From a virus, in IMG/VR virus record IMGVR_UViG_3300035212_000325, positions 1 through 38,351 of that record: a stretch of 38,351 nucleotides of DNA, one strand, 5' to 3'. Below, in pieces: positions 18,499 to 38,351 of this stretch. The notes beneath the pieces were generated by a model. It was given only the letters and a program-made list of their open reading frames with translations, was not told the origin of the DNA and ran no database searches. The position numbers and the translations under genes were made by a program. Position 1 is the first letter of the stretch. Each line of letters opens with the position of its first letter.

Positions 18499-18659
18499 GC
18501 CGCCACCTTGTCAGCTATGGCCGCAACGGCGACCAATACGGCCCACAGCAGCCAGATGATCGCGCGCAGATCATCTTTTGCGCGGGCAGCTAGAAAAACA
18601 AAAACCAATAGTAAAAGAAACGGAAAAACGCGAAACGCGATTTCGATGTATTCAATCAT
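18495..18659 (-). CDS. Small two-helix membrane protein
   Basis: This gene encodes 54 residues. Two membrane helices are clear: about 8-25 (AFRVFPFLLLLVFVFLAA) and about 32-48 (RAIIWLLWAVLVAVAAIA), joined by a short charged loop (RAKDD). It fits the operon exactly: eight-base overlap with the gene upstream and ATGA overlap with the zinc-ribbon gene downstream. Possible roles include superinfection exclusion or a lysis accessory; nothing in the sequence decides. Confidence 0.6.
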   Translation of the reverse strand: MIEYIEIAFRVFPFLLLLVFVFLAARAKDDLRAIIWLLWAVLVAVAAIADKVAA

Positions 18660-18837
18660 TTAATGCTCCATTGGGTTTTGGTTCGTTCAGCATTTCCGCC
18701 AGCGCGCGGATCTGGTCGGATTTGGTCGCCGGAACGACGACCTCCACCCGCGCCAGCCCGCGATCCGCGAACTGGGCGCGCTCGGCGCGCTTGCGCTCCC
18801 GGGCTTTGCGGCGGCGCTCATTGGCTGCGTCTTCCAT
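18652..18837 (-). CDS. Small DNA-binding candidate (ribbon-helix-helix-like)
   Basis: This gene encodes 61 residues. A very basic N-terminus (NERRRKARERKRAERAQF) is followed by RVEVVVPATKSDQIRALAEML, a strand then helix as in ribbon-helix-helix regulators. Too short to be certain. The start codon overlaps the upstream stop by one base (TGATG). If it is a repressor, the GACCGGTC sites near 20844 and 25937 would be natural targets; that link is speculation. Confidence 0.5.
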   Translation of the reverse strand: MEDAANERRRKARERKRAERAQFADRGLARVEVVVPATKSDQIRALAEMLNEPKPNGALND

Positions 18838-19175
18838 CAGCGCACCTCCAAGATCAGCAGCAGGCAGGTGTCGCGCAACTCATCCGACAGTTTCGGATGC
18901 CGGCAGATCAGTTCGTCGAACGCGGCCGTGATCTTCATCTCAACGGCGGCGAGTTCTGCGGCGGACATCGACGACCTGAAGCCGTGCCGCGCTTCCGCGC
19001 GCGCAGCTTCGGCGCGCGTTTCAGCGTCTTTGATCGCGAGCGCGGTCATGGACACAAAGTCTGTCAGGTCGGAAGTTTCGAGGATCCCGCGCGCGCTGAT
19101 GTCGTCGAATAGCGCGGCGCGCTCTGCGGCGGATCCGAACATGGCGGGCAGATAGTAGGAAAGAGGGACTTGCAT
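18837..19175 (-). CDS. Small helical protein, function unknown
   Basis: This gene encodes 112 residues from ATG 19175, with AAGGAGACCCAAG directly upstream, a relative of the repeated start-site module. An upstream in-frame ATG at 19232 lies inside the next gene and lacks a site. The body is Ala/Glu-rich helix (KDAETRAEAARAEARHG). The C-terminal part (FDELICRHPKLSDELRDTC) has two cysteines. No family recognised. Confidence 0.55.
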   Translation of the reverse strand: MQVPLSYYLPAMFGSAAERAALFDDISARGILETSDLTDFVSMTALAIKDAETRAEAARAEARHGFRSSMSAAELAAVEMKITAAFDELICRHPKLSDELRDTCLLLILEVR

Positions 19176-19186
19176 CTTGGGTCTCC

Positions 19187-19306
19187 TTATGGCGTGACGA
19201 TTAAAAACAAGACGAGCAGCGCGCAGAGGCACGCCGCGCCAAGGATCGCCTCAGCGATCTCGGCGGGGGTCGATCTGGAAAAAATGCGGCGGATTTCGTT
19301 TAGCAT
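19187..19306 (-). CDS. Very small membrane protein
   Basis: This gene encodes 39 residues with a perfect copy of the AAGGAGACCTGCC-ATG start module, which is the main reason to call it. It has a basic amphipathic start (LNEIRRIFSRS), then one membrane helix at about 19-37 (EAILGAACLCALLVLFLIV). Gene spacing of 11 bases on both sides matches its neighbours. Function unknown. Confidence 0.6.
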   Translation of the reverse strand: MLNEIRRIFSRSTPAEIAEAILGAACLCALLVLFLIVTP

Positions 19307-19317
19307 GGCAGGTCTCC

Positions 19318-19932
19318 TTATGCGGTGGTGGGGATGGTGATCAGGGAATGGACGAGCGAGCGCCGCGCTTGCGGCCCTAGCAGATTGAACGCGCTGTTGC
19401 GCATTGGCATGACCACCGCGCAGCAGTCTTCGCGCGCGCCAAAGGTCACCAGCGCGGGGTTTTCGCCGTCAGCATAAACGGATGCAACCGAACCTTTTCC
19501 GTCCAATGCTTCCGCTACCTTTTTCATATCGACCAGATTGGCGGGGTTAAACTGCGCGGCAGTCAGCGTCGCCGGCGGATCCTGCGGGATAATGCGCGGC
19601 CAGCTGTCAGGTAAAACTCCGTCAATGGGCGTGAAAACAACGTCACCAGCGCGCCACAGATTGCCTTCGCGGGATATGTAAAGGACGCTGTGCTTATACC
19701 CCTTCAGCGCCCGCGCCAGCGCGTCTTTGGGGATCAGGAACTTATCGACATCAACCACGACACCGACGCGCGCGCAGAACAGCCTGTGGCCATCGGTGCT
19801 GACGACGCGCAAGTCGCGCGGATTCGGTTCAATGCTGACGCCTTGCAAATAATAGCGCGTCTCCTCGTCGCTTGTGCAGATCAGCGCAGCGCGCATGATG
19901 CCAGCGTTTAGTGCGATAGAAAAGTCAGTCAT
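19318..19932 (-). CDS. Shortened beta-sliding-clamp (DnaN) homologue
   Basis: This gene encodes 204 residues from ATG 19932, with the AAGGAGACCTGCC module. Residues 25-51 (TRYYLQGV, then VVSTDGHRL) match the start of DnaN domain 2. About 98-115 match its end (DVVFTPIDGVLPDSWPRIIP). Residues 173-178 (VVMPMR) match the extreme C-terminus of DnaN. These two motifs form the client-peptide pocket of the E. coli clamp. Domain 1 is absent. Only about 56 residues separate the PRIIP and VVMPMR blocks, against roughly 110 in E. coli as I remember it. It could tether the phage polymerase, pair with the host clamp, or compete with it. Confidence 0.75.
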   Translation of the reverse strand: MTDFSIALNAGIMRAALICTSDEETRYYLQGVSIEPNPRDLRVVSTDGHRLFCARVGVVVDVDKFLIPKDALARALKGYKHSVLYISREGNLWRAGDVVFTPIDGVLPDSWPRIIPQDPPATLTAAQFNPANLVDMKKVAEALDGKGSVASVYADGENPALVTFGAREDCCAVVMPMRNSAFNLLGPQARRSLVHSLITIPTTA

Positions 19933-19943
19933 GGCAGGTCTCC

Positions 19944-20399
19944 TTATGCTTTTTTCGCGCACTCTGGCCCAATGCCAGAGATCACGCTTTCGGGTGTCGT
20001 CAGTTTGCGGCCGCAGGCGCAGCAGCGGCCATCGTGAAATATCGACAGCTTATCCGGGATCCGCGCGTGCGCGGCCAGCTGCGCCAGCGTCCAAGACAGC
20101 GCTTTGAAGCTGGGCGCGCCGATCATACCTTTGGCCCCGGCTTTGAGCGTGCCGCGATCCTCGCCAAAAATGCAGCCGATATATTGATAGTCGCGATCAT
20201 TATTGGATCCGCGCAGCACCGAAACGAAGAACGGCGCGCCTTCGTTTTGCTGGCGGATCTTGTAGGTGTATCGCGTGCTGGTCTTTTCGCTGCGGATCGT
20301 GAAGGTGGCGTTTCCGCCAAACATGAAACGCAGCGCGTCGTTCGCCGAAGCGAGCGCGCCCGGCACTGGTTCTGGGATGTAGTCTGGTTCGAAGTGCAT
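19944..20399 (-). CDS. DUF6011-like protein with C-terminal zinc motif
   Basis: This gene encodes 151 residues with the AGGTCTCC/GGAGACCTGCC start module. The N-terminal part is beta-type (ATFTIRSEKTSTRYTYKIRQ) with FFVSVLRGSNN. The C-terminus has CCACGRKLTTPESVISGIGPECAKK, a Cys-rich zinc-binding motif (here positions about 128-150) typical of the DUF6011 domain. That domain occurs in many phage and plasmid proteins of unknown function near replication genes. Confidence 0.65.
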   Translation of the reverse strand: MHFEPDYIPEPVPGALASANDALRFMFGGNATFTIRSEKTSTRYTYKIRQQNEGAPFFVSVLRGSNNDRDYQYIGCIFGEDRGTLKAGAKGMIGAPSFKALSWTLAQLAAHARIPDKLSIFHDGRCCACGRKLTTPESVISGIGPECAKKA

Positions 20400-20426
20400 G
20401 GCAGGTCTCCGTGGTTAAATCGAATT

Positions 20427-20642
20427 CTATCGAAAGTGGTCTAGGCGAACGACTTCTTTCTCCAGCGCGTCCATCACATCCGCAACAGTATCGCCGGAGA
20501 TAGTCTGCTTGAACCCGCCATAATGGATCGTGCCCTTCGGCCCCTCTTTAGCGAGAGATGAAACGGAACCAATGAAACGGTTGTCGCAATAAACTGTGTA
20601 AAGTGAGATGGACGCGTCGATCTCTTGAAATGTCAATCGCAT
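20427..20642 (-). CDS. Small gene, function unknown
   Basis: This gene encodes 71 residues from ATG 20642, preceded by TGAGACCTGCC, a variant of the module with a weaker Shine-Dalgarno core. The N-terminal part is beta-type (MRLTFQEIDASISLYTVYCD), then FIGSVSSLAKEG and a C-terminal helix (ADVMDALEKEVVRLDHF). No family recognised. Confidence 0.5.
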   Translation of the reverse strand: MRLTFQEIDASISLYTVYCDNRFIGSVSSLAKEGPKGTIHYGGFKQTISGDTVADVMDALEKEVVRLDHFR

Positions 20643-20654
20643 GGCAGGTCTCAT

Positions 20655-20804
20655 TTAAATATGGTCATGATAGGTCGAAATGGTGACCGCATCTTTAGCG
20701 TCCCGCAGGGTGCGATGGGCGCTGTGCGATCCGTCCGCATACGTCACGATCCAGCGGCTATTTAGTCCGCGTTGAATGGTCAGGCCTTTGTAAATCCGTG
20801 TCAT
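20655..20804 (-). CDS. Small gene, first of the leftward small-gene operon
   Basis: This gene encodes 49 residues. ATG 20804 has the full AAGGAGACCTGCC module. The sequence MTRIYKGLTIQRGLNSRWIV then ADGSHSAHRTLRDAKDAV suggests a small beta-beta-alpha fold. It directly follows the operator-bearing promoter at 20837-20865, so it is the first gene read from it. No family recognised. Confidence 0.5.
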   Translation of the reverse strand: MTRIYKGLTIQRGLNSRWIVTYADGSHSAHRTLRDAKDAVTISTYHDHI

Positions 20805-20836
20805 GGCAGGTCTCCTTGTTTGTGTTTCGTGTTTCC

Positions 20837-20865
20837 TATATAAGACCGGTCGCAATGAATGTAAA
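20837..20865 (-). promoter_or_regulatory. Early promoter, sigma70 type
   Basis: On the minus strand TTTACA (20865-20860) and TATATA (20842-20837) are separated by exactly 17 bases. This is a close match to the -35/-10 consensus. The predicted start would be near 20830, giving a leader of about 25 bases that contains the AAGGAGACCTGCC ribosome site of the first small gene. Confidence 0.7.
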
Positions 20866-20873
20866 GACCGGTC
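20844..20873. promoter_or_regulatory. Tandem operator: two GACCGGTC palindromes
   Basis: AAGACCGGTCG occurs twice; the palindromic cores GACCGGTC are at 20844-20851 and 20866-20873. The cores are 22 bases apart, about two helical turns. One lies in the promoter spacer next to the -10 box; the other lies just upstream of the -35 box. This geometry suits a dimeric repressor. A third copy is at 25937-25944. Confidence 0.65.
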
Positions 20874-20883
20874 GTAAAAATAG

Positions 20884-22686
20884 TTAGTCCAGATCCGCCC
20901 AGTTCGGGCCGACGCCCCCTTCGATCAGATTGTCCGTCGGTGCGCCGGGGAAAAAATCGAGGTAACCGGCGGTCATGTCTGCGGCCATCGCCTGCTTGAC
21001 GATCTCCGCCTGCGTCTCCAGCGCCTCATCGATCAGCGCGTCGTGGATCGTGGCGAGCAACAGCGTGCGCTGCGGGTCGAGCACGCCGGATCCGCGCAGG
21101 CGATCGAGCGTCGCCTTGTGCCGCGTGATCGCCCGCGCCATCACTGACAGCGCGGCGCGCTGGACGGGATAGTTTGCACATTTGGGCAGATCCGCGTTGC
21201 GCTTGCCCAGATAGATCGTGCCGCCGTCGTTCATGGTCAAATAACCCGTCGCCTGCGCTTCCTCTTGCATCTGAAAACGATAGGCAAATGCGCGGGGATA
21301 ACGGGCTGCCCAAGACGCGATGTGGGTCTGCGCGTTTTCGACAGACGTGCGCATGGTGATCGACAGCCCACCAGCAGCGGCCCCGTAAATAATACCAAAC
21401 GAAACGCCCTTGGCTGCGCTGCGCGCCGCCTTGCCCTCCGGTGTTTTCTTGTCGATCTTGTGCCCGGCGATCACCGCCGCGACTTCGGAGTGCACATCGC
21501 CGAACACCACATCTTCGAGCAACTGGTCATCACCAGACAGCAGCGCGAGCACGCGCATCTCGATCGCCGAATAGTCGTAGGACACCAGCAACGACCCTGG
21601 CGGCGCGATGAATGATTTGCGCACGCGGGTCTGATCGTCATCAGACGCGAACAATTTCTTGTCGCGCGGTACTTGCTGGAGGTTCGGGCCGGAACTGGAG
21701 AACCGGCAGGTGCGCGCCGCTCCGACGTTGAACCGCGCGCGCACGCGCCCGTCTGGCGATCTGGTCGCGGTGTCGATCACAGTCTGCCCAAAACTGGAGA
21801 TATATTTTTGGATCTTGCGGTATCGCGACAGGGCGTCGAGCGCAGCCTCAATCGGTGTTCCGGGGAACAGCCCCGCCATCTTTGAGAGCGCATCGCCGGA
21901 GATCTCCAACTGGTTCGTTTTTTCGGTTTTCGGCCAGACTGCCAGCACGCGATCGGGGAAGATCCGCGCAAAATAGTCGGAGAACTGCGGGTTCGAATTG
22001 AGGTTCACGACATCCGTTTCGGGGATCAGCGCACGCACTTGCGCCGCGAGCTCGTCGCGGATCTGCTCCCAGCGCGCCACCAGATCGCGGTGCGCGCGCC
22101 GGTCAAGCAGCATCCCAGCCTCTTCCATCTCAATGACACCTAGGGTCATGTCGTCGAGGATCTGCGCCGCGCGATCGTGCGCTGCGGTGGTTTTGGCCTT
22201 CCAATGCTCCCAGAGCTCAAAGGTGACATCAGCGTCGCGGATGGCATATTCAAGCTGCTGCTGCGAGAGTTCGGGCGCGGCCCAGTTCGAAACCTGTTCG
22301 TCTTTGGCGAGTTTCTGCTCCAGATCCCAGAGCACCATATCAGCGAGCGAGAACCGGCCCCCGCCCATGCGCGCCCGGCGCAGATGCCCGACGTCGACAA
22401 TATCGGGGCGGGCATCGGCGGCCACGAACCAGCGCATCTCAAAGCCCGAATTGAACACGACCCAAGGGCCACGCTGTTCGAACAGTTTCGCGCAGCCTGC
22501 GAAGCCGCCGGGGATCTGGTCAAAGTCGATAATGCAGCGCAGCTTTTCGTTCCGCAGCTGGGCGAGCCGAACGCGGCCATCTATCGGGCGCAGCGATGTC
22601 GTTTCGAAGTCGAGCGCGGTCGCGGTATGGCACAGCGTCAGAGCGCGCCACAGAGCGGCTTTGTCGGTGATCAGGTCATATGTCAT
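20884..22686 (-). CDS. DNA polymerase, family A (PolA-type, no 5'-3' exonuclease)
   Basis: This gene encodes 600 residues from ATG 22686. Proofreading domain: exo I LDFETT (Asp26, Glu28), exo II FNSGFE with Glu83 where PolI has Asp, exo III YAIRD (Tyr147, Asp151). Polymerase domain: motif A SYDYSAIEMR (Asp371), motif B RSAAKGVSFGIIYG (Lys426, Phe430, Tyr434), motif C ATIHDA (His548, Asp549) where most PolI enzymes have HDE. Phe430 matches E. coli residue 762, so this is the Phe762 type. The 5'-3' exonuclease domain is absent, as in most phage PolA enzymes. It synthesises phage DNA in the cytoplasm with the primase-helicase. Confidence 0.93.
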   Translation of the reverse strand: MTYDLITDKAALWRALTLCHTATALDFETTSLRPIDGRVRLAQLRNEKLRCIIDFDQIPGGFAGCAKLFEQRGPWVVFNSGFEMRWFVAADARPDIVDVGHLRRARMGGGRFSLADMVLWDLEQKLAKDEQVSNWAAPELSQQQLEYAIRDADVTFELWEHWKAKTTAAHDRAAQILDDMTLGVIEMEEAGMLLDRRAHRDLVARWEQIRDELAAQVRALIPETDVVNLNSNPQFSDYFARIFPDRVLAVWPKTEKTNQLEISGDALSKMAGLFPGTPIEAALDALSRYRKIQKYISSFGQTVIDTATRSPDGRVRARFNVGAARTCRFSSSGPNLQQVPRDKKLFASDDDQTRVRKSFIAPPGSLLVSYDYSAIEMRVLALLSGDDQLLEDVVFGDVHSEVAAVIAGHKIDKKTPEGKAARSAAKGVSFGIIYGAAAGGLSITMRTSVENAQTHIASWAARYPRAFAYRFQMQEEAQATGYLTMNDGGTIYLGKRNADLPKCANYPVQRAALSVMARAITRHKATLDRLRGSGVLDPQRTLLLATIHDALIDEALETQAEIVKQAMAADMTAGYLDFFPGAPTDNLIEGGVGPNWADLD

Positions 22687-22709
22687 GAGGCATGCCTTAA
22701 ATGATGGCA

Positions 22710-22732
22710 GAGGGCGCGCCAGACGCGCCCTC
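22710..22732. terminator. Hairpin between two leftward replication genes
   Basis: GAGGGCGCG (22710-22718) pairs perfectly with CGCGCCCTC (22724-22732) around a five-base loop. It follows the stop of the gene at 22742-23440 in the leftward direction and precedes the polymerase. No T-tract follows, so it could be a partial terminator, a pause or an mRNA-stabilising stem. Confidence 0.45.
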
Positions 22733-22741
22733 CGTGGTGTT

Positions 22742-23440
22742 TTAGCGGCGAGCGCGCGTTGCGGGCTTGGTGGTGTCGCCGGCTTCACCATACAGCAGCG
22801 CGTTGAGATCAGTCGAGCCAGCAAAGAACGCTTCGACTTCTTGGCGCGCCACCCAGCCGTGGATGGCGAACTTCGGCTTATAGTTCACTGCGCCCTGCGC
22901 CGTGAACTGCTCCGCAGCAAACTCAAACACCGGCATAGACGGCGCGCCCGACGTCATGCGCCGCACGATCTCGTTCAAAAGGTCGCTGATCGCATTGCGG
23001 CCGCTGACGGAGTTCGTCACGAACTTGACGCTGGTCTGCGCGCCGTCCATCGAGACGCAGCCGAAACCTAGCGCGCGATGCCAACCTTCCCCGGTCTTGG
23101 TGTTGTAGGGCGCATGATCGGGCAGATCCGGCTCCGCCACGGCGGCGCGCTTGTTAAATATCGACCATTCCACGCGGTCGACGGGCTTGCTCGCTTTCCA
23201 GCAGATCCAGCCTTCAACCACTGATTTAGGTTCGATGACAAACAGCTGGTCGTGAACGTCGGTGCGATCACGGCCCAGCGCGTAGGATCCGGTTTTGCCA
23301 GAGAAGGCGAGATACTGGACATTCAGCCCAGTGCCGGTGCGTTGCTCTTCGGTCGTGTCGGAGAGCGCGGCGATCATCTGGTCGTCGGAGATGTCCGGCA
23401 GATCAGCGGATGATAGATAGGCGGTCAAAGATGTGGTCAT
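22742..23440 (-). CDS. Replication accessory protein, candidate ssDNA-binding protein
   Basis: This gene encodes 232 residues with an ATAGGAG ribosome site. Soluble, mixed alpha/beta, no enzyme motif. Features include VVEGWICWKASKPVDRVEW, HRALGFGCVSMDGAQTSVKF and a C-terminal part with KPKFAIHGWVARQEVEAFF, then a disordered, basic tail (TTKPATRARR). It lies between PolA and the Cas4-like nuclease. In many phages with PolA, a Cas4-like DUF2800 nuclease and a SNF2 helicase, this place is taken by DUF2815, an ssDNA-binding protein. The assignment here is by position only. Confidence 0.5.
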   Translation of the reverse strand: MTTSLTAYLSSADLPDISDDQMIAALSDTTEEQRTGTGLNVQYLAFSGKTGSYALGRDRTDVHDQLFVIEPKSVVEGWICWKASKPVDRVEWSIFNKRAAVAEPDLPDHAPYNTKTGEGWHRALGFGCVSMDGAQTSVKFVTNSVSGRNAISDLLNEIVRRMTSGAPSMPVFEFAAEQFTAQGAVNYKPKFAIHGWVARQEVEAFFAGSTDLNALLYGEAGDTTKPATRARR

Positions 23441-25845: not shown

Positions 25846-25897
25846 GGCAGGTCGCTTTCGGTTACGTTGCTACGTGGGCCCATTCGGCCCGGTCTCA

Positions 25898-25936: not shown

Positions 25937-25944
25937 GACCGGTC
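25937..25944. promoter_or_regulatory. Third GACCGGTC operator-like palindrome
   Basis: This palindrome is identical to the two cores at 20844 and 20866 and sits, as AAGACCGGTC, in the divergent region between the helicase and primase genes. It is close to the candidate leftward promoter and could affect both directions. Confidence 0.5.
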
Positions 25945-25948
25945 AACG

Positions 25949-25977
25949 AAAAAAGATCACCCGCCGGAGCGGGTGAT
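25949..25977 (-). terminator. Minus-strand intrinsic terminator in the divergent region
   Basis: Read leftward, ATCACCCGC pairs with GCGGGTGAT (25977-25969 with 25964-25956) around a four-base loop. After one C the transcript enters TTTTTT (25954-25949). Stem plus T-run is a good Rho-independent terminator for leftward transcription, yet no leftward gene lies just upstream. It could stop antisense transcripts or act as a leader attenuator. Confidence 0.65.
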
Positions 25978-26068
25978 GAGAACAGGGAGGATCTATGCAG
26001 TCTTGCGGTGATCGCAGTCTTGGGTTTATTGTGCAGACCTGCCAAGGATACACAACAGCGAGGATATT

Positions 26069-31382: not shown

Positions 31383-32805
31383 TGCGGAGCTCTGCCGCCG
31401 GTCGGTGCTTTATTTCGCGCAGACCTTTTGGCCCGTGCTCGAACCCGGGCGCAGTCTGGTCACTGGCTGGCCGATTGATGCGATCGCGGAGCATCTCGAA
31501 GCGGTGACGCGCGGCGAGATCCGCAAACTGCTGATCACTGTGCCGCCCGGGTCGATGAAGTCGCTGTTGACGCGGGCGTTCTGGCCCGCATGGAGTTGGG
31601 CAAAGGATCCGTCGCTGCGATACATCGGCGCGTCCTACGCAGAAGCGCTGGCAGCGCGCGACAACAGGCGCGCCAAGATGATTGTCGAGAGCCCACTCTA
31701 TCAGCGGCTCTTCCCGCGTGTGCGGCTGTCTGATGACCAAGCGCAGAAGGTGAACTTCGCGAACACTGCGACCGGCTCAATGATGGCGACATCGGTGCGC
31801 GGGCGCGCGACAGGCGAGCGCGGGGATGTGTTCGTCATCGATGACCCCCACAACGTGTTAGAGGCGGAGAGCGAGGCGATCCGGGGCGAGACGCTGCAAT
31901 GGTTTCGCGAGGTCGTGCCCAGCCGCGTGAACGACCTAGACCTCAGCGCGTTCGTCTGCATCATGCAGCGCGTGCATCACGAGGACGTGGCCGCAGCGGC
32001 CATAGAACAGGGCTATGAGCATCTGTTGATCCCGATGCACTATGACCCCTCCAGAGCGCGCACCACATCGATAGGATGGCGGGATCCGCGCACGCAGCCC
32101 AATGAACTGATGTGGCCCGCGCGCTTCTCTGCGCAAGCGGTGGCGGAACTGGTGCAGACGCTCGGCCCCTACGCATCGGCAGCCCAGCTGGAGCAGCGGC
32201 CAACGCCGCGCGAAGGCGGGCTGTTCAAGGTCGACAAGATCCAGACGATCGACGCCGTGCCCGACGAGGAGATCAACTGGTGCAGGGCATGGGATCTCGC
32301 GGCGACCGATGGCAGCGGCGCATATACCGCAGGCGTGCTGGTCGGCTGGCGCGTCGAAGCGCGCCGGGTGATCATCGCGGACGTGCGGCGCGCTCGGATG
32401 GGCCCAGATGGCGTGCGCAAGATGGTCGCAGACGCCGCAGACTTCGATGGCGACGACGTGCCTATCTCGCTCCCGCAGGATCCCGGGCAGGCGGGCAAGG
32501 CGCAGGCGCGCGACTTCGTGGTGCGTCTGGCTGGGTATCGCGTGCGGATCGAGCCGCAGAGCGGATCCAAAGAAACCCGCGCCGAACCGCTGGCGGCGCA
32601 GATGGAGGCGGGAAACGTCGATATTGTGACCGGTGCGTGGAACCGCGACTTCATAGAAGAGCTTCGACATTTCCCCAGATCAGTGTATAAAGACCAAGCG
32701 GACGCCGCGAGCTCGGGCTTTAACGCCGTCTCGCCGAAGAAGCAGAAGAAGACCGGTCTATTCGTGATCGGTGATCATGTGGGCAACAAAGCGAGGCCGG
32801 TCTGA
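31339..32805 (+). CDS. Terminase large subunit (ATPase-nuclease)
   Basis: This gene encodes 488 residues from ATG 31339; upstream TTG codons are less likely. Packaging ATPase: Walker A VPPGSMKS (Lys74, Ser75), Walker B VFVIDDPH (Asp168, Asp169). C-terminal RNase H-type nuclease: Asp319 in RAWDLAATDGS and later DFIEELRHFPR. The deviant Walker A (PPGSMKS) is usual in this terminase branch. It pumps DNA into the head at the portal. A GACCGGTC copy at 32751-32758 lies inside the gene and is probably chance. Confidence 0.92.
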   Translation: MQLPQITTADKDLIDAELCRRSVLYFAQTFWPVLEPGRSLVTGWPIDAIAEHLEAVTRGEIRKLLITVPPGSMKSLLTRAFWPAWSWAKDPSLRYIGASYAEALAARDNRRAKMIVESPLYQRLFPRVRLSDDQAQKVNFANTATGSMMATSVRGRATGERGDVFVIDDPHNVLEAESEAIRGETLQWFREVVPSRVNDLDLSAFVCIMQRVHHEDVAAAAIEQGYEHLLIPMHYDPSRARTTSIGWRDPRTQPNELMWPARFSAQAVAELVQTLGPYASAAQLEQRPTPREGGLFKVDKIQTIDAVPDEEINWCRAWDLAATDGSGAYTAGVLVGWRVEARRVIIADVRRARMGPDGVRKMVADAADFDGDDVPISLPQDPGQAGKAQARDFVVRLAGYRVRIEPQSGSKETRAEPLAAQMEAGNVDIVTGAWNRDFIEELRHFPRSVYKDQADAASSGFNAVSPKKQKKTGLFVIGDHVGNKARPV

Positions 32806-37950: not shown

Positions 37951-38351
37951 ATGCCCTATCAAACGAATGACGATCTGCCGGGCGCGGTGAAGCGCGTCCT
38001 ACCCAGCGATAAGGCGCGTTCGCTCTGGAGGCGCGTGTTCAACGACAGCATCGATCAGGGCTATCAGGAGGGCCGGGCATTCGGCGCGGCCTATGCCGCG
38101 ATTGAAAGCGCGGGCTACACGAAGGGCAAGGATGGCGTCTACATCGAGAAGATCGATGAAGAACTCGAGAAGGTGTCGACGGACACGCTGCGCGCCAAAG
38201 TCGAAACGCACAACGCAGAGGACGGCGACAAGGGCCGCGTGACTGTCGATATGCTGCGGCAGGTCTATGACCGGGGGATCGGCGCATATCGCACGAACCC
38301 GGGCAGCGTGCGGCCAAGCGTCAGTTCACCCGAACAGTGGGCAATGGCACG
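37951..38351 (+). CDS. ChaB/XkdF-type head maturation protease, 5' part (continues at 128)
   Basis: This 401-base segment holds the first 133 codons of the gene whose 3' part is at 1-1178; the window cut makes it partial. ATG 37951 follows AGGATCTAAT. Residues about 1-60 match the ChaB domain: MPYQTNDDLPGAVKRVLP, then a W in SLWRRVFN and GAAYAAIESAGYTK. ChaB was named after an E. coli cation-transport regulator, but phage copies usually sit at the start of head proteins. Residues about 93-133 enter the GIGAYRTNPGSVR segment. Its role in a protease precursor could be a scaffold-like arm; that is inference. Confidence 0.75.
   Translation, partial: MPYQTNDDLPGAVKRVLPSDKARSLWRRVFNDSIDQGYQEGRAFGAAYAAIESAGYTKGKDGVYIEKIDEELEKVSTDTLRAKVETHNAEDGDKGRVTVDMLRQVYDRGIGAYRTNPGSVRPSVSSPEQWAMA
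38225..38351. repeat. Terminal direct repeat, right copy
   Basis: These 127 bases are identical to bases 1-127. They show that the contig closes on itself; the next base in the circle is base 128. Confidence 0.95.

Follow-up and report, generated by a model that had tools for sequence, protein, structure and literature searches.

What controls the leftward promoter that directly follows the polymerase gene of this phage, and what do the two copies of one palindrome packed into it do? The window analyzed here is the whole stretch of 38,351 nucleotides (IMG/VR record IMGVR_UViG_3300035212_000325). An exact 127-bp direct repeat at its ends (1-127 / 38225-38351) makes it probable that the assembly is complete and circular, with a length of ∼38.2 kb. 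The earlier note had described a minus-strand promoter, TTTACA-N17-TATATA, with one copy of the 8-bp palindrome GACCGGTC in the 17-bp spacer and another adjoining the -35 box. Our analysis confirmed this arrangement, with palindrome starts at 20844 and 20866, 22 bp apart (Table 1).

Table 1. Features of the paired-palindrome promoter, the genes behind it, and the region of the helicase operon.
Feature	Position	Strand	Remark
Putative outer operator palindrome GACCGGTC	20866-20873	minus	Abuts the -35 box; same position in all relatives that cover the site
-35 box TTTACA	20860-20865	minus	Reads CTTTAC if the C before it is included; most relatives have CTTGAA/CTTGAC
Putative inner operator palindrome GACCGGTC	20844-20851	minus	In the promoter spacer
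-10 box TATATA	20837-20842	minus	
Translation leader AAGGAGACCTGCC	20805-20817	minus	Directly before ATG
First small gene, 49 aa	20655-20804	minus	Read from the promoter; first gene differs between relatives
Accessory/early gene block	18652-20804	minus	Downstream of the promoter
DUF6011 protein	19944-20399	minus	In the accessory block
Clamp-like/RusA-like protein	19318-19932	minus	In the accessory block
61-aa basic protein	18652-18837	minus	Contains RVEV[V/I/R]VP; candidate regulator, weakly supported
Terminator-like hairpin with T run	25956-25977	minus	Intrinsic-terminator type; lies upstream of the remnant operator and is kept in relatives
Remnant outer operator of second paired-operator promoter	25937-25944	minus	From alignment with relatives
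Promoter of the helicase-exonuclease-polymerase operon, TTGACG-N18-TATGAA	25896-25927	minus	Leftward
Degenerate operator-like GACCGGGCC	25886-25894	minus	Just past the helicase-promoter -10 box

We then asked whether such a pair could arise by chance. The window contains four exact copies of GACCGGTC (20844, 20866, 25937, and 32751), and Markov models of order 0 to 4 predict 0.7 to 1.2, which bears out the earlier estimate of about one; the copy at 25937 had been noted before, the one at 32751 had not. This fourth copy (32751-32758) lies within the terL coding sequence and is kept in relatives along with the conserved protein, probably as a matter of codon conservation; in the relatives compared, it is kept at synonymous-capable positions. 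Two copies of GACCGGTC separated by a gap of 12 to 16 bp are expected only ∼1e-4 times. However, an identical pair of 8-bp palindromes of any kind, 20 to 24 bp apart, turned up ∼0.23 times per simulated genome, so that the pair in a single genome is merely suggestive.

Conservation settled this point. Searching with the DNA polymerase (20884-22824) gave 40 related viral loci. In every close relative (84 to 96% polymerase identity) that covers the site, the stop codon of the polymerase gene is immediately followed by the paired-palindrome promoter, whereas the distant relatives (52 to 56% identity) have no such promoter after the polymerase gene. The outcome that the earlier note had named as refuting its reading, sites that are not conserved near promoters in relatives, was thus not observed. 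A second, equally oriented copy lies between the helicase and primase genes in the longer contigs G002, G003, G007, G008, G011, G012, and G018, and likewise upstream of the helicase operon in the fragments L309, L313, and L315. In the resulting comparison of 27 distinct instances from ∼20 phages and two genomic places, seven of the eight positions of the inner palindrome never change, the exception being position 3 (C in 21, T in 6); the outer palindrome varies at the same position (C in 16, T in 10) and is otherwise nearly invariant. The TTG of the -35 box is also nearly invariant and as strongly conserved as the palindromes, whereas the other -35 and -10 positions and most of the spacer are more variable. 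The distance between palindromes is confined to 23 bp (17 cases), 22 bp (9 cases), or 21 bp (1 case). Because the element occurs in two places per genome, ahead of differing first genes, it is kept for its own sake. These data place the pairing far beyond chance and leave coincidental palindromes near a promoter, for which the simulated rate could be cited, with a negligible probability. An IMG/VR scan for GACCGGTC-N12-16-GACCGGTC returned 101 stretches, and on inspection of their context the promoter-like ones all belonged to this phage group; a DNA-level comparison with phage records gave no match to the window.

What has become of the second promoter in this phage? Alignment showed that the inner palindrome and -10 box of the second promoter, together with its gene cassettes, are gone from the window and its closest relative, G001, leaving the outer palindrome ∼10 bp upstream of the -35 box of the helicase operon (TTGACG, 25927-25922). 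The copy at 25937 thus does adjoin a replication-operon promoter, as the earlier note had it, but the promoter is the leftward one of the helicase operon rather than the rightward one of the primase, and the copy is a half-deleted remnant. In relatives, where the promoter is duplicated, the proposal of a single regulator for both early units finds good support; here, the second promoter is reduced to one site. In most relatives, the identical promoter upstream of the helicase operon would let the regulator govern a further accessory block as well. After the helicase-promoter -10 box, all relatives compared have GACCGG[G/A]CC, a form with one mismatch that may act as a weak operator or belong to a 5' hairpin. 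The strong hairpin with a T run at 25956-25977 is directed leftward, away from the region upstream of the primase gene; because no leftward gene that it could terminate is obvious, it may belong to a short antisense RNA.

An alternative explanation is that the repeats work not as DNA operators but in the polymerase mRNA, as a hairpin at its 3' end, be it a terminator, an attenuator, or a stabilizer. The two palindromes can indeed fold into a strong hairpin, whether in RNA or in single-stranded DNA, which counts against reading them as operators: polymerase read-through transcripts fold into stems of 8 to 13 bp (-15 to -24 kcal/mol), and the C-to-T change at position 3 can preserve G-U pairs. 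However, the stem has no T run after it, the -35 and -10 boxes are fixed in place relative to the palindromes, and the element is found again ahead of the helicase operon, which is not a gene end, followed by a ribosome-binding leader and a start codon. Hairpins therefore form, but lack terminator features, and we regard an RNA function as very improbable.

Which sigma factor would read the promoter? The form CTTGAA/CTTGAC-N17-CTATAT found in relatives matches the consensus quoted for S. meliloti sigma70, CTTGAC-N17-CTATAT (PMC2573895). The window promoter has no T at -7, which is often the case for alphaproteobacterial sigma70 promoters (PMC8407463). A generic sigma-70 scan did not list the promoter at 20837-20865, although it fits this published alphaproteobacterial consensus. 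One could argue instead that the heat-shock sigma factor RpoH reads the promoter, with the palindromes as a gate, since many relatives carry exactly CTTGAA-N16-CCTATAT, the quoted RpoH1 consensus (PMC4843759), and several fit the RpoH type with a spacer of N15/16. But the RpoH and sigma70 consensuses overlap in alphaproteobacteria (PMC3616915), the C before TTG and the C before TATAT are already fixed by the end of a palindrome, and the window's own promoter (CTTTAC-N16-CTTATAT) is further from the RpoH form than those of its relatives. Sequence does not separate the two factors, and we give RpoH only a slim chance. The promoter form fits an alphaproteobacterial host, and the group probably consists of phages of alphaproteobacteria. 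The nearest TerL among described phages is 45% identical (a Rhizobium phage), and the best polymerase matches are at ∼25 to 29%; in a host-group search, TerL matches reached 38% in Rhodobacterales and, in one case, 45% in Sphingomonadales, giving no clear host assignment.

The genes behind the promoter share a translation leader. In the form GACCTGCC, it also occurs on the minus strand at 19314, 19940, 20407, 20650, 24477, and 25853, immediately before the ATG of many small genes and usually preceded by AAGGAG; GACCTGCCATG was observed 6 times in the window versus 0.03 expected. Counting the gene at 20812, (AAGGA)GACCTGCC immediately precedes the start codons of at least seven unrelated leftward genes, and most of the relatives G001-G018 have this leader 3 to 7 times. 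One copy of GACCTGCC lies on the opposite strand (26036-26043, plus), near the expected start of the primase transcript; it adjoins no start codon and is invariant in five aligned phages. Besides the proteins in Table 1, the accessory block encodes a 131-aa protein. The small genes behind either promoter vary between close relatives, and the promoter and first gene are nearly identical in L015 and L024, phages from different polymerase clades, so that promoter-plus-cassette units are evidently exchanged.

Taken together, we consider it likely that the element is a leftward early promoter read by the housekeeping sigma factor (sigma70) and equipped with paired operators for one dimeric regulator, most likely a repressor. 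A recognizable promoter is overlapped by operator copies that are kept in sequence and helical phase across relatives (27 instances, 21 to 23 bp). One regulator dimer would sit between the -35 and -10 boxes, and a second would sit against the upstream edge of the -35 box, two helical turns away on the same face of the helix. With this spacing, the dimers could bind cooperatively and exclude RNA polymerase. Operators over the spacer or against the -35 box are in the usual position for repression, and the site between the two boxes makes an activator less likely. The repressor would keep polymerase off until it is removed, or would turn the block off later in infection; the promoter would thereby gate a variable block of small early or accessory genes that share a ribosome-binding leader.

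Is the regulator encoded by the phage or by its host? Family matching recognized no helix-turn-helix (HTH) or ribbon-helix-helix (RHH) protein among the window proteins searched, which weighs against paired operators. In a genome that is probably complete, it also favors a host transcription factor, in which case the phage would have borrowed a host operator and its accessory genes would follow host physiology. This alternative concerns only the identity of the binder and is compatible with paired operators. It draws on several Rhizobiales as well, in which pairs of GAGACCGGTCTC, 21 to 23 bp apart, lie between LacI-family repressor and transporter genes, so that such sites do exist in alphaproteobacteria. 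However, these sites are longer palindromes beside their own repressor. Moreover, the promoter pattern was absent from the 780 alphaproteobacterial genomes sampled (395 in a Rhodobacterales set, 385 in an alphaproteobacterial set); this absence tilts slightly, without proof, toward a phage-specific regulator. We therefore view a host factor as quite possible but not probable, and a phage protein as somewhat more likely. In a scan of bacterial genomes for GACCGGTC-N12-16-GACCGGTC, most of the matches listed look like chance or like the LacI sites of Rhizobiales.

These Rhizobiales sites share with the phage sites the same 8-bp core in two copies 21 to 23 bp apart. They differ in that the palindromes are at least 12 bp long and intergenic, between a LacI-type gene and a gene for an ABC-transporter binding protein, whereas the flanks in the phage are different (AAGACCGGTCGC, AGGACCGGTCCT) and no LacI protein was found among the phage proteins searched. 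The phage pair is thus not a LacI operator pair of this kind. The GAGACCGGTCTC pairs by the binding-protein gene come from Martelella, Microvirga, Rhizobium, and similar bacteria (L210, L226, L258, L272, and L167); four of the five loci have a divergent LacI-family gene, which was not seen in the fetched stretch of L258.

Could the regulator be the 61-aa protein, the RHH-like candidate binder of the earlier note, acting as an autoregulator at the distal end of the operon? All operator-bearing relatives whose sequence extends over its position have this protein. Its 21 invariant residues fall in the pattern RERKRxER...RVEVxVPxxKADQIRALAExL, and its model shows a basic helix, an extended, ribbon-like RVEVxVP segment, and a helix. 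In addition, the ribbon residue expected to face the DNA is V or I in phages with GACCGGTC at every site and R in those whose sites have T at position 3; this correlation, however, is confined to a single clade and amounts to one event, so that it is uninformative about operator/regulator covariation. An RHH fold requires two helices after the strand. Here, only one helix follows the ribbon segment, the other preceding it, and searches of Pfam, NCBIfam, PDB sequences, and folds gave no RHH match and no known family, leaving the RHH identity unsupported; in 395 Rhodobacterales genomes, only two weak, partial matches to the protein were found. The 131-aa neighbor has an all-helical model with no fold match.

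Two hybrid phages bear directly on both small proteins. In G020 (L320/L321), the structural genes and the 61-aa gene are retained but joined to a different replication module, and paired operators are missing; the fragment L285 has the same cassettes, its 131-aa and 61-aa genes follow a different promoter, and it contains no GACCGGTC. Both conserved candidates thus also occur in phages without the sites, which counts against the paired-operator reading, and the suggestion that the 61-aa protein is the binder was not supported; we rate it unlikely. From the hybrids, a regulator that belongs with the polymerase-type replication module, or a host protein, is more likely. Beside its promoter, L285 has a divergent Cro-like open reading frame (1359-1607, minus; PF13560, E 0.007, below the cut-off). 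A bolder proposal, distinctly unlikely in our judgment, is that the 61-aa protein, perhaps with the 131-aa protein, represents a new fold class (basic helix-ribbon-helix) and a portable master switch, with two identical promoters gating exchangeable anti-host or accessory blocks in units swapped across clades.

How does this promoter compare with known systems? In lambda OR/PR and in P22 Arc/Mnt on Pant, at least two operator copies lie over the -35 box and spacer of an early promoter, on one helix face, and the same operator serves more than one early promoter. The paired palindromes resemble these systems in overlapping the -35 box and spacer, in lying on the same helix face, and in serving more than one early promoter. 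Unlike them, the phage has no recognizable repressor gene and no divergent lysogeny switch, its operator is an 8-bp palindrome with a central CpG, and an accessory-gene block lies downstream. The stoperators of Cluster A mycobacteriophages are asymmetric, numerous, scattered sites of the repressor type. They are likewise short repressor-type sites repeated within a phage genome, whereas the present sites are palindromic, number two to four, and lie at promoters only. Stoperators are mentioned in a study of Cluster K mycobacteriophages (PMC3203893), in which a 13-bp SAS (GGGATAGGAGCCC) precedes the starts of nonstructural genes and a subset of SAS has upstream ESAS, 17-bp imperfect inverted repeats 4 to 13 bp apart, at single genes (PMC3203893). 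The likeness lies in a short conserved sequence just before start codons and in paired inverted repeats that precede some of them. However, the leader here (GACCTGCC) is unrelated to GGGATAGGAGCCC, the host group is different, and the repeats are perfect 8-bp palindromes that flank embedded promoter boxes and occur once per gene block; the element is thus not a member of the SAS/ESAS family.

The layout of this promoter is familiar in kind, and its operator site and regulator are undescribed within these searches. Judged by its sequence, the element is real, conserved, and functional-looking. It raises a clean question, namely, which protein reads GACCGGTC. As a regulatory signal, it marks blocks of early accessory genes in an uncultured, probably alphaproteobacterial phage group, and the motif could therefore be used to find early, possibly host-takeover, genes in metagenomic phages.
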